Part shown: in pieces, positions 2,887 through 38,472 of the stretch
How positions within the stretch are numbered: position 1 is the first letter of the stretch
Layout of the letters: every line of letters begins with the position of its first letter
DNA from: a virus
Direction: 5' to 3' (one strand)
DNA length: 46,834 nucleotides
IMG/VR virus record: IMGVR_UViG_3300013104_000010
Coordinates: 1 to 46,834 of that record
Position numbers and translations under genes: made by a program
The notes under the pieces: generated by a model
What the model was told of the DNA's origin: nothing
What the model saw: only the letters and a program-made list of their open reading frames with translations
Databases searched by the model: none

Positions 2887-5660
2887 TTGCCTGCCCTCCG
2901 CGTGTTGGTGATCTGATTGGTCGACTGTGCGGTTTTACCGCCACCCATCTGGTCACCGGCAACCACGTCGATCACCCAGGCCCGATCGGCGTCGCTGAAT
3001 CGAGCGACTGCTGACGCCTGCTGCCCGGTATAGTTATTCACGTTGACGATCGGCGCGTTGCCCCCGCCGCTGCCCATCTGTGCGCTGGCATCCTTGTTAT
3101 TGACAACCTGACCCCGCTGGTTGGGAATCATGTACTGCTGGCCCCCGGCGCTGAACACCTCAGGGGCGCCGCCTTCGTTGACCCGGTAAACGCTGTTCGC
3201 CGAAACGTTACCACCGGCACGCCGACCGCCGCCGAAGCTCTTGGCGAGCAACATGGTCGCCAGCAATGCCGCGCCGCCGATCACCGCCGCGCCGCCGAAC
3301 GATGCGATCGAGGACAGGCCTGCGGCCGGGGCCATCGAGGTTGCCACCGCTGGGCCGGTTGCCGCTGCGGCCGCCGTGGTGGTCGTTGCGATCGTTGCGG
3401 TCGCGCCAGCCTGAGCGGCGGTTACCGCTGCAATGCCGCCGGTCTGGGTTGCCGTGGTTGCCGCGGCTGCGCCCTGCATCATGATCTGTTGCTTGACCCA
3501 GTCGGTGCCCATTTGGGTAAAGGCGCCGATCACCGTTCCGAGAACCGTTTGCGCTACGCCGCCCAGTGCTTCGCGCCAGTTTGCTGTGCCTGAAGCCAGG
3601 CCCGCCAGCGCCTGCGCACCCTGAGCGCTGAGCGCGTCAAGGCTATCGAACAGGATCTGGTTCCCCATTGCCTGCGATTTAAAGTTTTCCTCTTGAAGCT
3701 GTTTCATTTTCGCCGCGTTTTCCGTCTCGGCGATGTGCTTCAGCTCCAGATAACGCTGATCGCTGAGCAGCTTCTGCGCGTTCAGGTCGTCCAGGCGCTT
3801 CAGTTCTTCGTCATAGCTCTGGGTCTGCGCGGCGATCGGATCGGCCTGCGCAAGCGCGGCCTTCGCGCCTTTCAGATCGTACAGGGCCGCCGCCATATCG
3901 CGAATGCGCTGCACTTCGTCAGGGGTGGCGAATCGGCTCAGCCCTGCCTGCGCAACGTCCTGCGCAACTTCACGAGCGGTCTGCCCCACGTTGCTGATTG
4001 CCAGGCCCAGTTCTGCAAATTTCTTCTGATCGCCAGCGATCGCGGTGCTGCGTTCCTTTTCTGCTTTGCGTTCGGCGGCCTCGGCTTCACGCTGCAATTT
4101 CGCGGATTCAGAAATCCCGGCTTTCTTGACCTTCAGACGGTTTTTCTCAGCCTCGGCCAAGTTGAAGTTTTCCACGGCCAGGGCGACCGCTGCGGCACGT
4201 TCCGAATCCGTAGCCCCAGCACCGAGTTTTTGAATGGCGGCCAGTTTGGCGCGCTCGACCCCCTGAGCGCGCAAAAGCACGTTTTGTTCGGCCAGTTGCT
4301 GGATTACCTTCTGGCCTTCGACGGTCGTCGTTGCGGCGGCGCCGCCGGTTCCAGATTCCTGTTTCTGCTGAGCAACGCGACGATCCTGCATCGCCCGAAT
4401 TTCTTCGTTCAGCGCGTCGATCCGCTGACTGGTGGCGTCGGCAGTTTTCGTCAGCCCGGCTCTGACCTGAACGGCATATTGCTGTTCGGCTACGGCACGC
4501 TGCCGTAGCAGGTCGTTGAACCGCTCCACGTCGGTCGGACTGAACGAACGCTGAACGCCCAGCGCTACCGCATCGAGGGCCGCAGCCAGGGTACGCGATG
4601 CGCCCGTTGCACGATCGATCACCGACAGCGCGGCGCCGAATTGAGTGGTAAGGGCGTTCGCCGCCTGGCCGATCGTGCGTGGCAGCTTTTCGAATTCTGC
4701 ATTGACGTCTTGCGAGCGGCCCAGCAGCACATCGAACAGATTTTCGGCCGTGATCTGACCGTCCAGCATCATCTGCCGCAATTGGCCCAGGCTGACGCCG
4801 AAGCCCTTGGCGATCTGCCTGGCGAGCTCCGGAGTGTTCTCGATAACACTGTTGAACTCTTCAGCGCGCAGCGTTCCGCCAGCCAGGCCTTGGCTCAGTT
4901 GGCGCAGGGCGTTGCTGGTTTCCTCGGCGCTCGAACCGCCGATCGTGCCGATTTTCTGCAGGGTTCCGGTCAGCTGCAGGACTTGGGCGTTTGTTGCACC
5001 GAGCGCAGTCAGGGTGCCGGTCAGGGACTCCCAGAGTTTGACCGTATCGCCCATCGTGCTACCGGTTTTGCTGGAAATGCCGAGTAACGCCTGATAGCTG
5101 GCTGCAGCAGTATCAATATCGGGGCTGAGGCGGTTGATCCGGGACTGAAACAGCGTGAACTGTTCAGCCATCTGCCCCCATTGCTTGATGGTCTGGATAC
5201 TGATCAGGCCGGCGATCACTGTTGCAAGCGGGGTAAGCGTTGCGGCAAAGCCTTGAGAGCTCTTCGCCGTCTTGACGGTATTGCTCTGAAGATCGGCGTA
5301 ACGCTTATCGAGCTTCGCCAGTTCGGCGGAATACTGCGCGGCGCTGAGCCGGCCGGCATCGAAGTGCTGACCCAGTTCTTCGGTCCAGTTGTCGAGCTGC
5401 TGGGTTTTGCCGATCAGCGGGTCGATCTGGCCGAGCAGCTTGCGCAGCGAAGCCGCAGCGCCATCGGCGTCCTTGCCCATACTGTCGAACGAATCGCCAG
5501 CCCCCTTCGTAGATTTCTTGGTCCGGTCGGCCGCCCTGTCGGTTTTATCGAAAGACGCCTGTAGCGCATCGAGACTGTCGACCGCACGTTTGCCGGCATC
5601 GATGACCTTGTCTGTCTTGGCATCGACTTCGTAGTAGATCGCGCCGGCGTTTTCTGCCAT
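2883..5660 (-). CDS. Tail tape measure protein
   Basis: A 925-residue tape measure protein that sets tail length and is ejected ahead of the DNA. The N-terminal 120 residues are Lys/Asp-rich and coiled-coil-like. Residues about 150-350 match the conserved tape-measure domain (AEETSNALRQLSQGLAGGTLRAEEFNSVIENTPEL is recognisable in part). A long Ala/Gln/Glu coiled coil follows, and hydrophobic Ala/Gly/Thr-rich segments lie near 690-820, as expected for a membrane-inserting region. At about 0.15 nm per residue the tail would be near 140 nm. It is the longest gene of the window and starts one base after the preceding gene's stop begins (TAATG), consistent with coupled translation. Confidence 0.93.
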   Translation of the reverse strand: MAENAGAIYYEVDAKTDKVIDAGKRAVDSLDALQASFDKTDRAADRTKKSTKGAGDSFDSMGKDADGAAASLRKLLGQIDPLIGKTQQLDNWTEELGQHFDAGRLSAAQYSAELAKLDKRYADLQSNTVKTAKSSQGFAATLTPLATVIAGLISIQTIKQWGQMAEQFTLFQSRINRLSPDIDTAAASYQALLGISSKTGSTMGDTVKLWESLTGTLTALGATNAQVLQLTGTLQKIGTIGGSSAEETSNALRQLSQGLAGGTLRAEEFNSVIENTPELARQIAKGFGVSLGQLRQMMLDGQITAENLFDVLLGRSQDVNAEFEKLPRTIGQAANALTTQFGAALSVIDRATGASRTLAAALDAVALGVQRSFSPTDVERFNDLLRQRAVAEQQYAVQVRAGLTKTADATSQRIDALNEEIRAMQDRRVAQQKQESGTGGAAATTTVEGQKVIQQLAEQNVLLRAQGVERAKLAAIQKLGAGATDSERAAAVALAVENFNLAEAEKNRLKVKKAGISESAKLQREAEAAERKAEKERSTAIAGDQKKFAELGLAISNVGQTAREVAQDVAQAGLSRFATPDEVQRIRDMAAALYDLKGAKAALAQADPIAAQTQSYDEELKRLDDLNAQKLLSDQRYLELKHIAETENAAKMKQLQEENFKSQAMGNQILFDSLDALSAQGAQALAGLASGTANWREALGGVAQTVLGTVIGAFTQMGTDWVKQQIMMQGAAAATTATQTGGIAAVTAAQAGATATIATTTTAAAAATGPAVATSMAPAAGLSSIASFGGAAVIGGAALLATMLLAKSFGGGRRAGGNVSANSVYRVNEGGAPEVFSAGGQQYMIPNQRGQVVNNKDASAQMGSGGGNAPIVNVNNYTGQQASAVARFSDADRAWVIDVVAGDQMGGGKTAQSTNQITNTRRAGN

Positions 5661-18891: not shown

Positions 18892-19097
18892 GGTTCGACC
18901 TCCGTGCGCAGCACCACGCCGCTGATCCCCTTGTCGGGTTCGATGTTCTTCACCGTCGACTGTTCAGGGTCGCGCCAAACCGCCGTGCCCTCTTCGCGAG
19001 CATTCTCGACGGCTACGCGCCTGGCACAGGCAACGCACACGGCGCGCAGGACCTGTTTGATCCGGCCGTCCTTCGTTTCGAGTAGGTACAGGGGCAT
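18888..19097 (-). CDS. Small hypothetical protein
   Basis: A 69-residue protein with a short CVACARR motif (Cys21, Cys24 region) and beta-like ends (LYLLETKDGRIKQVLRAV and GISGVVLRTEVEP). It is first after the promoter at 19138-19166 and has a GAGGCG-like ribosome site. Function unknown. Confidence 0.6.
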   Translation of the reverse strand: MPLYLLETKDGRIKQVLRAVCVACARRVAVENAREEGTAVWRDPEQSTVKNIEPDKGISGVVLRTEVEP

Positions 19098-19137
19098 AAA
19101 TTAACGCCTCATCGGTGAATCGGTTGATTGAAACCGC

Positions 19138-19166
19138 AGGCTATTCGCCTTTGCGCTTGCTGTCAA
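19138..19166 (-). promoter_or_regulatory. Phage-consensus promoter
   Basis: On the minus strand: TTGACA (19166-19161), 17 bp spacer ending in AAAGGCGAA, TAGCCT (19143-19138). It lies directly after the terminator of the large RNA and drives the genes 19097-18333. Its initially transcribed region (TTTCAATCAACCGA) resembles that of the promoter at 18119-18147. Confidence 0.83.
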
Positions 19167-19171
19167 GCAGG

Positions 19172-19198
19172 CAATAAAAAGCCCCGGGGGAGCGGGGC
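19172..19198 (-). terminator. Strong intrinsic terminator ending the non-coding transcript
   Basis: On the minus strand GCCCCG (19198-19193) pairs with CGGGGC (19186-19181), loop CTCCCC, followed by TTTTTATT. It is the only strong terminator downstream of the terminase genes and the structured RNA. Confidence 0.85.
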
Positions 19199-19272
19199 AA
19201 GGGTGTAGCAGGAGCAAGCTAGGTGGTGCAATCGACCGCGTACCGTGTAGCGGGGTGGCCGGTATTGCTCAA

Positions 19273-19393
19273 TTGCACCAGATGAACCGTCGGCAGCCGC
19301 ATTTAATGTCTGCTGGACTGGAGAACGCATTGATCCCGACTTACCCTTACGGGCTCGGGGAGCGCACAGGCCCCGACGGTTCATCTGGTGCAA
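19273..19393. repeat. Perfect 21-bp inverted repeat
   Basis: Bases 19273-19293 are the exact reverse complement of 19373-19393, with 79 bases between. The core of the left arm (GGTGCAAT read on the minus strand, 19279-19272) can also pair with ATTGCACC at 19232-19225, so two pairings compete. In between, CCCGA/TCGGG and CCC-GTAA-GGG form a smaller arm. It is most easily explained as a long helix of the non-coding RNA. Confidence 0.85.
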
Positions 19394-19481
19394 CTCGCCG
19401 CGTCGGCGGCCCCTTGTCGTTTACCCTCGGACGATTTGGGCATCGTTGAGAGGCCTGCCGAGCTGGCGTTGGTTGATCAGC

Positions 19482-19566
19482 GGGTAAACGTGAGGGATTT
19501 GAACCCTTCACCTTGACGCCGTTTGCCGGTTTGCGAACGTCAAAGCCCTAGCCAGGCGAACCCATA
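19482..19566 (-). ncRNA. tRNA-like element, probably degenerate or structural
   Basis: Four bases after tRNA-Asp, the minus strand holds a classical T-arm-like sequence (AAGGGTTCAAATCCC), a D-arm-like GCC-TGGCTA-GGGC and a TTGACG/CGTCAA stem where the anticodon stem would be, but with a 19-base loop. The 5' acceptor strand does not match ACGTTTA after the T arm. ACGTTTACCC instead pairs with GGGTAAACG 56 bases downstream. It is either a decayed tRNA or a tRNA mimic in the larger RNA. Confidence 0.35.
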
Positions 19567-19569
19567 AAT

Positions 19570-19646
19570 TGGCGGAACTGAAGGGCTTCGAACCCTCGGC
19601 CTCACGCGTGACAGGCGTGCGCTCTAACCATCTGAGCTACAGTTCC
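19570..19646 (-). tRNA. tRNA-Asp (anticodon GUC), CCA encoded
   Basis: A full 77-nt cloverleaf on the minus strand: perfect acceptor stem GGAACTG/CAGTTCC, D arm GCTC-AGATGGTTA-GAGC, anticodon arm CACGC-CTGTCAC-GCGTG with anticodon GTC (bases 19612-19610), T arm GAGGG-TTCGAAG-CCCTT, discriminator G as usual for Asp, and encoded CCA. It would be released from the larger transcript by host RNase P and 3' trimming. GAC/GAT are common codons in this genome. Confidence 0.95.
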
Positions 19647-19854
19647 AAATGCGACGTACTTGGCTCGCATTGTCCCGATACGCTTGGGCCTATGGCCTTT
19701 CGGCTTCGTCCGGCTCTCGGCACGACTAGACACCGTCGCTGTTTGTAGGGGCCGGCGTTATCACTTCGTCAGGCTTTCAGCTCAATTGCCCTGATCAAGT
19801 ATCCGGCGACGGATAGGCGTTTCCCCAACAAACTGGGCTAGCCCTACGCCTCGC

Positions 19855-19883
19855 AAGCTATCCGCCTATAACCGTTCCGTCAA
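19855..19883 (-). promoter_or_regulatory. Phage-consensus promoter for the structured RNA
   Basis: On the minus strand: TTGACG (19883-19878), 17 bp spacer GAACGGTTATAGGCGGA, TAGCTT (19860-19855). It overlaps the last codons of the terminase large-subunit gene. The end of the spacer (AGGCGGA) differs by one base from AGGCGAA of the other promoters. Transcription would begin near 19850, precisely at the first helix of the RNA. Confidence 0.72.
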
Positions 19884-21157
19884 CCCCTCTTTTTAATCAG
19901 CATGCCCACCTGGCGCCCTTTCGATTTCATAACTTTCTCGACCGCATACCGCAGCGCATCGATGTAGTGGTTGTATTTGTCGACGATCACCCTGGTAACT
20001 TCACCCGTCAGGCGGTCGACCTTGAAGCTGTAGTGCTTGAACTCGTTCTGCACAGCGTGGCAGGTCGGATGCACGATAATCGAGTAGGTTTTCAGGTGGT
20101 CGATGCCGTCCTCGACGCTGCCGGGGCCCTTCACAGCGCCCTCGATAAGCATGAGGTAATCAGCCTTGCGCTGGCCGTTCGGCGACATGGCCTTCGACAG
20201 GTGACTGATCGATTCAGGCCTGGCGCTATCGGCAATCACCTCATGCTTATCGATGCCCGGGATCTTGGCCTTGAGGAATTTCGCGGTGTCGTCCAGTTCA
20301 AGCCCGATCTGCCCGGCCTCCTTGTCGATGTACAGCTCGGTTTCGTCCGGCGATATCCAGCAGCGCACCGCGGCCGTCGGATCCATCGCGAAGCCGAAGT
20401 CGAGACAGTGGTAGGGCCCGTGCCAGGACGCATCAGGGAACCGGATGCCTTCTTTCCAGGCGCCCGCGAATATTTTCGATTCGTCGTTGGTCAGGTAGGC
20501 ACCCTTCCAGATCCAATCGAACTTCGCAGCGTCGAACTTCGCCCGTTGTTTCTCCCGCAGCTTGCGCAGCCCGATCGGGAACCACGGGTTATCCTCGGCG
20601 TTCATTTCGACGATCGCATAATCCGGATCGTTCGCCGCAACGTCGGTCCTGAACCTGGTATCGGTCGGGCTGCCTTCGTCTTTCGGGTTCCAAATCACCC
20701 AGATTTCCGACCGCAGTTTGCGCAGGACCGTCGCTTCGAGCGCCACCCAGGCATCTTCGCTGATGTCCTCCGCCTCTTCGACTACCGTCAAATCGATGTT
20801 GGCCAACGACTTGACGCTGGTCAGGTTGTTGTAGAGCCCCTTGAACAGGAATTCAGTCGTGTTGATCTTGCTGCGCAGGTAGTCGATGCCCACGTCGTAG
20901 GCTGCAGCCAACCACGGTTCTGAGGCGATCGCCGCTTTCAGCTCAGCGTGAAACGAATCCTTGATCGAGGACTGAATTTCGCGAACGCACAGCACCCGCA
21001 GCGGCTCGATCACGCCGAATATCGCCGCCATCTTGGCGAAGCTCATCGATTTACCCGATCCCCTGCCCCCGTGCGCCCCTCTGTAGGTCAGCGAGCCGCG
21101 TTTCCTGGCGAAAACCGGGATCAGCTTAGGGGGCAGACGGACTTCGGCGTTACTCAT
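19880..21157 (-). CDS. terL: Terminase large subunit
   Basis: A 425-residue packaging ATPase-nuclease. Walker A is GGRGSGKS (about residues 30-37); Walker B with its catalytic Glu is LTVVEEAE (about 125-132). The C-terminal RNase H-like nuclease shows its acidic residues in CLDFGF (about 251), VIADSARPES (about 309) and HYIDALRY (about 397). The subfamily looks like Terminase_3/PBSX-type. It follows the terminase small-subunit reading frames with a short overlap. Its last codons overlap a promoter for the downstream RNA. Confidence 0.95.
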   Translation of the reverse strand: MSNAEVRLPPKLIPVFARKRGSLTYRGAHGGRGSGKSMSFAKMAAIFGVIEPLRVLCVREIQSSIKDSFHAELKAAIASEPWLAAAYDVGIDYLRSKINTTEFLFKGLYNNLTSVKSLANIDLTVVEEAEDISEDAWVALEATVLRKLRSEIWVIWNPKDEGSPTDTRFRTDVAANDPDYAIVEMNAEDNPWFPIGLRKLREKQRAKFDAAKFDWIWKGAYLTNDESKIFAGAWKEGIRFPDASWHGPYHCLDFGFAMDPTAAVRCWISPDETELYIDKEAGQIGLELDDTAKFLKAKIPGIDKHEVIADSARPESISHLSKAMSPNGQRKADYLMLIEGAVKGPGSVEDGIDHLKTYSIIVHPTCHAVQNEFKHYSFKVDRLTGEVTRVIVDKYNHYIDALRYAVEKVMKSKGRQVGMLIKKRG

Positions 21158-27915: not shown

Positions 27916-27944
27916 ATATTATTCGGCTTTGAGCCTACCGTCAA
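27916..27944 (-). promoter_or_regulatory. Phage-consensus promoter
   Basis: On the minus strand: TTGACG (27944-27939), 17 bp ending in AAAGCCGAA, TAATAT (27921-27916). Its leader (GGCTCAACGAAACGCAAACAGC) nearly matches the leader of the plus-strand promoter at 38444-38472, so conserved sequence extends into the 5' UTR. Confidence 0.83.
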
Positions 27945-38443: not shown

Positions 38444-38472
38444 TTGACAGGTAGGTTAAAGGCGAATAGAGT
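38444..38472 (+). promoter_or_regulatory. Phage-consensus promoter for accessory plus operon
   Basis: TTGACA (38444-38449), 17 bp ending in AAAGGCGAA, TAGAGT (38467-38472). It lies after the DNA polymerase gene and should drive the leader ORF, the TerB-like gene and the CsrA-like gene. Confidence 0.85.

Follow-up and report, generated by a model that had tools for sequence, protein, structure and literature searches.

The window studied here, a stretch of 46,834 nucleotides corresponding to the virus record IMGVR_UViG_3300013104_000010, contains downstream of the terminase gene terL a non-coding unit on the minus strand (19883-19172) that runs from a promoter through a tRNA-Asp to a terminator. 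This locus raises the question of what kind of RNA is made from it. The first-pass annotation took it for a single structured RNA of about 680 nt, either a giant RNA of the GOLLD/ROOL type or a representative of a new class of this sort. The unit is instead a composite, a chassis into which separate small-RNA modules are inserted, of which the informative one is an antitoxin RNA hairpin, abiF, that was overlooked in that annotation. The features of the unit and its flanks are collected in Table 1.

Table 1. Features of the non-coding unit and of its flanks, in window coordinates
Feature	Position	Strand	Evidence or remark
terL, terminase large subunit	19880..21157	-	PF04466/PF17288, phrog_3717; upstream neighbor of the non-coding unit
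Unit promoter, TTGACG-N17-TAGCTT	19855..19883	-	motif recurrent phage-wide
5′ domain	19647..19848	-	helices present, not above chance
tRNA-Asp (anticodon GTC), encoded CCA	19570..19646	-	ARAGORN; RF00005, 67.2 bits
tRNA-like or decayed tRNA segment	19485..19565	-	T-arm-like AGGGTTCAAATCCCT (repeat D5), 8-bp stem
Clamp helix around the abiF hairpin	19418..19490	-	19490-19483 CGTTTACC pairs with 19425-19418 GGTAAACG; inverted repeat I3
abiF RNA (RF03085), orphan antitoxin RNA hairpin	19425..19462	-	cmscan 43.5 bits, gathering score 37
Long hairpin, perfect 21-bp stem, 79-nt apical part	19273..19393	-	inverted repeat 19273-19293/19373-19393
Intrinsic terminator of the unit (terminator-like hairpin and T-run)	19172..19198	-	CGGGGCTTTTTAT tract common to L019
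Next promoter, same family	19138..19166	-	drives gene 19097-18888
Small gene of no assigned family	19097-18888	-	far flank of the non-coding unit

The promoter-to-terminator organization of the unit is confirmed, its promoter matching a motif that is repeated elsewhere in the phage. The motif recurs at 19166 and 18147 on the minus strand and at 38444 on the plus strand, and in weaker form at 27944 (minus) and 9670 (plus). These sites and that of the unit follow the phage-wide promoter-like pattern TTGAC(A/G)-N17-TANNNT, with a conserved GCGAA-like stretch ahead of the −10 box. A generic sigma-70 scan did not pick up the unit promoter. Transcription of the unit is expected to start near 19848. 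At the other end, the terminator described earlier as strong does exist as a terminator-like hairpin with a T-run, but about 1.5 such hairpins are expected by chance in that region.

The composite nature of the unit is visible in L019, the nearest relative of this phage according to TerL (91%). The unit of L019 is shorter, about 420 nt, and shares with the window the promoter region, the base of the 3′ hairpin and the terminator, with neither the tRNA nor abiF RNA. The presence of a full tRNA-Asp with CCA is confirmed by both ARAGORN and Rfam (Table 1), and its absence from the L019 unit agrees with the earlier proposal that the tRNA is carried as a module. Among 26 records of TerL relatives that were scanned, none has abiF RNA and L019 alone shares the ends of the unit. 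Since these relatives lack the RNA, it is not kept across the phage lineage. In the 3′ hairpin, the stem base TTGCACCAGATGAAC is conserved in L019 (L019:6462-6560), while the loop differs. Another short element, CAACCARCGCC, is found at 19475-19464 of the window and usually precedes a small CCGC-NNNN-GCGG hairpin; it occurs in phages with and without abiF RNA (L098:7225, L099:6994, L100:7058, L101:6678, L102:7481, L012:137, L016:6105 and L019:6424).

The idea of a single giant RNA was attractive, as the unit is non-coding and of the right size, contains a tRNA, a promoter and a terminator and, taken over its whole 675 nt, folds with a z-score of -3.0. Like GOLLD and ROOL, it is a large non-coding phage transcript near a tRNA. 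It differs from them in matching no covariance model of this type: cmscan against all 4227 Rfam families, run at E<=5 over 19050-19950, retrieved no GOLLD, ROOL or other large-RNA model, but only tRNA, abiF and one chance match. The structure is also unevenly distributed. The 3′ hairpin is far more stable than its shuffled versions (z=-6.13; 0/200 shuffles as good) and the abiF hairpin with its clamp is moderately so (z=-2.54, 200 dinucleotide shuffles), whereas the tRNA-like segment at 19565-19485, called neither as a tRNA nor by Rfam, reaches only z=-0.68 (200 dinucleotide shuffles) and the 5′ domain z=+0.29, with 118 of 200 dinucleotide shuffles folding as well. The 3′ hairpin and the tRNA probably account for the score of the whole unit. 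From the multiple helices listed in the first-pass annotation, the perfect 21-bp stem outperforms shuffled sequences, but those of the 5′ domain are not above chance; the 11-bp pairing with one mismatch (19833-19823 with 19751-19741) does appear in the minimum-energy fold, but within this same unremarkable domain. No homologue of the 5′ domain was found in the phages searched, and the domain is absent from L019, which keeps the ends of the unit without its middle. Because no giant-RNA model matches and the 5′ domain is no better than its shuffles, the unit is not a giant RNA of the GOLLD/ROOL type, and a single structured RNA of a new class is very improbable; it is a composite of small modules.

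In bacteria, abiF RNA serves as the antitoxin of AbiF, a toxin of the HEPN RNase type (Abi_2, PF07751), and is located just upstream of the toxin gene (PMC12373285). The RNA of the window is a member of this family without a toxin gene. The exact abiF core is present (chance expectation for the window, with up to 3 mismatches allowed, 0.02 occurrences), together with the conserved loop CUCUCAACGAUGC and an AAAU bulge, in a hairpin that covaries among phage copies. Its idiosyncrasies are one extra nucleotide in the lower stem and a G-C pair replacing the consensus A-U at one inner position; 8 of 37 positions differ from the nearest AbiF-linked RNA sampled. The hairpin follows the tRNA-Asp by 107 nt and the tRNA-like stretch by about 22 nt. 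A search for Abi_2 (PF07751) over the 46.8-kb record, which is linear and may be incomplete, gave no match. As there is no Abi_2 in the record, the locus is not an AbiF toxin–antitoxin system but an orphan of its RNA.

Such orphans are frequent in viruses. Currently, 37 distinct viral records including the window are known to us with the motif, drawn from IMG/VR and from phages of Mycobacterium, Synechococcus, Aeromonas, Acinetobacter, Arthrobacter, Roseobacter and Salicola, and 36 of them are devoid of Abi_2 (one of these, L111, looks like a chance match and is probably one). A single exact core pattern retrieved 17 IMG/VR contigs, all scoring to RF03085 (6 over the cut-off) and none with Abi_2; five more viral contigs came from a looser pattern, and of these L107 alone encodes Abi_2. 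The isolate phage genomes checked in full all carry RF03085 (14/14, 13 over the cut-off) and all lack Abi_2 (0/14). They are Aeromonas T7-Ah and PZL-Ah8, Mycobacterium LittleE, DmpstrDiver, Bromden, Jobypre and MrMagoo, Arthrobacter Mimi, Acinetobacter Acj61, Salicola CGphi29, Synechococcus S-SZBM1, S-CREM1 and S-SRM01, and Roseobacter CRP-143. BLAST with the hairpin matches 70-99 phage records, the weakest by chance; the matches in phages Arace01 and PACT201 are of this kind. As a control, the same exact pattern was applied to bacterial and archaeal genomes, where it retrieved 33 loci. An AbiF ORF adjoins the RNA in 19 of them, and Abi_2 is present in 25/32 of the genomes concerned. Two bacterial loci, L055 and L067, look like chance matches within coding sequence in which the hairpin is absent. 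The consensus hairpin had no match in E. coli genomes, and the 10 matches on plasmids are weak or sporadic. Two details of individual phages may be mentioned. In Jobypre (L094:1194-1307), abiF RNA overlaps what has been annotated, probably wrongly, as a tRNA-Pyl gene; the 93-kb phage L103, a carrier of abiF RNA, has two group I introns (L103:2300-2467 and 3422-3598).

The phage hairpin is under selection as an RNA structure. This was established on 24 phage copies, 23 of them distinct, compared with 500 shuffles. Helix cells are paired in 88.9% of cases versus 71.6% after shuffling, double-change cells number 30 versus 9.8, and the covariation score is 0.465 versus 0.163. None of the 500 shuffles reaches the observed pairing, double-change or covariation values, structures slid along the alignment are only 34-53% paired, and the loop is almost invariant. 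Thus, when the helices are checked for covariation in homologues, as the first-pass annotation suggested, the abiF hairpin passes, but it is the sole part of the unit to do so. A direct connection with a genuine antitoxin is provided by the orphan RNA of LittleE, which over 42/42 nt is identical to the RNA preceding AbiF in L107, an intact AbiF locus. Megablast detected no further DNA shared by LittleE and L107, and identity in the midst of otherwise unrelated sequence fits a capture of the antitoxin alone.

Orphan abiF RNAs occupy recurrent sites. In L002, L005, L010, L011, L013, L109 and L112, as well as in the isolates Mimi, S-CREM1, S-SZBM1, S-SRM01, Bromden and MrMagoo, no more than 12 nt separate them from a tRNA gene, and often there is a tRNA gene on either side. 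In Aeromonas T7-like phages, the RNA is placed between the genes for connector and scaffold and starts about 20-30 nt past a T7-type promoter, and in Roseobacter CRP-143 it is found between the scaffold and capsid genes. In the siphophages L099 and L100, it stands ahead of the holin genes, with a terminator behind it. We infer that transcripts from these places are either strongly expressed or subject to tRNA trimming. In L011 (590-711) and L013 (4412-4533), three tandem abiF motifs lie on the margin of an array of 23 tRNAs. These tandem motifs resemble the repeat arrays of type III antitoxins.

Family identity, absence of the toxin, recurrence, structural selection, placement and the 42-nt identity, added to two precedents (RCd22 and PhiTE, see below), are the reasons for proposing an antitoxin mimic. 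The window unit is probably a small-RNA cassette whose orphan abiF hairpin would imitate the antitoxin RNA and act in trans on the AbiF of the host. We infer the expression, processing and action of this RNA to be as follows. The phage's own promoter would drive transcription of the unit, and the hairpin would be freed or exposed by the clamp helix, by trimming of the neighboring tRNA, or by both. It would then bind dimers of the host AbiF (Abi_2/HEPN) RNase in trans, replacing the host antitoxin RNA once infection depletes it, so that AbiF would stay inhibited and the suicide response would fail. The neighboring tRNA-Asp may replace tRNA lost to RNase damage, but a review reports that AbiF cleaves single-stranded RNA non-specifically (PMC12737573). 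Several facts count against the mimic: the window has a single motif, whereas RCd22 of C. difficile has two and a terminator; the lower stem contains an insertion; 8/37 positions differ; TerL relatives lack the RNA; and sk1 lacks RF03085. The last point concerns the lactococcal phages sk1 and 712, in which a scan found no RF03085 match, and a region of sk1 is reported, according to a title cited in PMC12737573, to protect phage 712 from AbiF. A second tRNA-like gene is present in sk1 (L086, 27645-27717) and absent from 712; with regard to the protection reported in that title, a tRNA-based route is a lead.

Other origins or roles of the hairpin have to be weighed against this proposal. It could be a relic, a functionless RNA left behind by a phage that lost the AbiF toxin of a former toxin–antitoxin module. 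AbiF systems do occur in prophages (PMC12373285; L107), and the bacterial locus L077 seems to keep a decayed AbiF-like fragment beside the RNA. Decay is nevertheless an unlikely origin, given that no AbiF remnant exists in the window or in 36/37 viral records, that the helix is maintained by compensatory changes and its loop hardly varies across many lineages, and that recurrent sites in tRNA arrays and at phage promoters are unlike decay in place. The frequent contact with tRNAs, the U-run that follows the hairpin in several phages and its position in L099/L100 before holin genes, with a terminator behind, would also suit a general processing, stability or termination element, that is a tRNA spacer, a 3′-end protector or a terminator, rather than an antitoxin. 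For such purposes, a stem would suffice, and neither the CAAAU bulge nor the near-invariant loop of 11 nt, CUCUCAACGAU, would be needed; furthermore, the same sequence adjoins AbiF in bacteria and one phage copy is identical over 42 nt to such an RNA. A general element of this type thus has little probability.

A broader partnership deserves separate consideration. In some Bacteroidales abiF RNA precedes RhuM, and the partner of the RNA may therefore be broader than AbiF. The RNA is directly upstream of RhuM (PF13310; PADLOC candidate system PDC-S05) in L056 (6503-7396), L059 and L062, and in L071 it is upstream of a RhuM-like start whose gene is apparently broken. RhuM in Bacteroidales may be a second toxin under the control of abiF RNA. 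The phage RNA could accordingly counter another defense, such as RhuM/PDC-S05, with AbiF as one of several partners. This arrangement was seen only in Bacteroidales, AbiF is the commoner neighbor (19/33) and published binding exists for AbiF alone (PMC12373285), which makes it doubtful that the phage RNAs are directed in this way. Inhibition of host AbiF by an antitoxin mimic is the interpretation retained here.

Taken beyond the window, we lean towards viewing orphan abiF RNAs as a widespread and largely overlooked class of RNA anti-defense agents, captured separately by unrelated phages with many different hosts, expressed from tRNA arrays or strong promoters, and locking AbiF and perhaps RhuM. 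If this is true, phage tRNA clusters would be counter-defense islands with RNA inhibitors and replacement tRNAs, which would give another reason for the existence of phage tRNA arrays, and the theft of antitoxin RNAs would be a general viral strategy extending beyond the one case of PhiTE. It may also answer the question of how phages meet AbiF, namely by supplying the missing antitoxin. Cas13 is inferred to descend from AbiF (PMC12165695, PMC12737573). In the papers searched, the only mention of abiF RNA from a lytic phage was in a report on cyanophage S-CREM1 (PMC9964418). The carriers of orphans comprise dozens of sequenced phages, including laboratory-grown phages of Mycobacterium smegmatis and T7-like phages of Aeromonas, so the proposal is directly testable.

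Comparison with known systems shows where the orphan RNAs stand. One of the closest is RCd22 of C. difficile, which binds AbiF directly and neutralizes it both in cis and in trans; stem-breaking mutations abolish the neutralization in trans (PMC12373285). RCd22 and the window RNA belong to the same family, RF03085, with the same hairpin and conserved loop, and RCd22 acts as a free RNA that binds the protein in trans (PMC12373285). RCd22 differs in having two motifs and its own terminator and in being located upstream of the toxin gene, whereas the window RNA has one copy, lies within a tRNA unit and has no toxin. In S-CREM1, the abiF RNA was described as a small RNA possibly functional in infection (PMC9964418); this RF03085 member between tRNA genes was found independently here (L091). 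That report dealt with one phage, noted three phage members in Rfam, and neither remarked on the missing toxin nor proposed mimicry (PMC9964418).

Phage mimics of antitoxins and of CRISPR repeats are already known, and it is the breadth of the abiF orphans that is unexpected. Racrs are the example for CRISPR: as proposed for the window RNA, the phage carries the lone RNA part of a host defense to disable its protein (PMC10651486). Racrs mimic CRISPR repeats, while the window RNA would mimic the RNA antitoxin of a toxin, and no Rfam CRISPR family matched 19050-19950 at E<=5. The example for antitoxins is the pseudo-ToxI of phage PhiTE, an antitoxin-RNA mimic able to defeat the type III system ToxIN (PMC3475682). 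Like pseudo-ToxI, the window RNA is a phage non-coding RNA that resembles a host antitoxin RNA and comes without the toxin. The families differ, those of PhiTE being ToxI and ToxN, and the repeat array of pseudo-ToxI is expanded in escape mutants, whereas an abiF orphan mostly consists of one conserved hairpin, which many natural phages already have.
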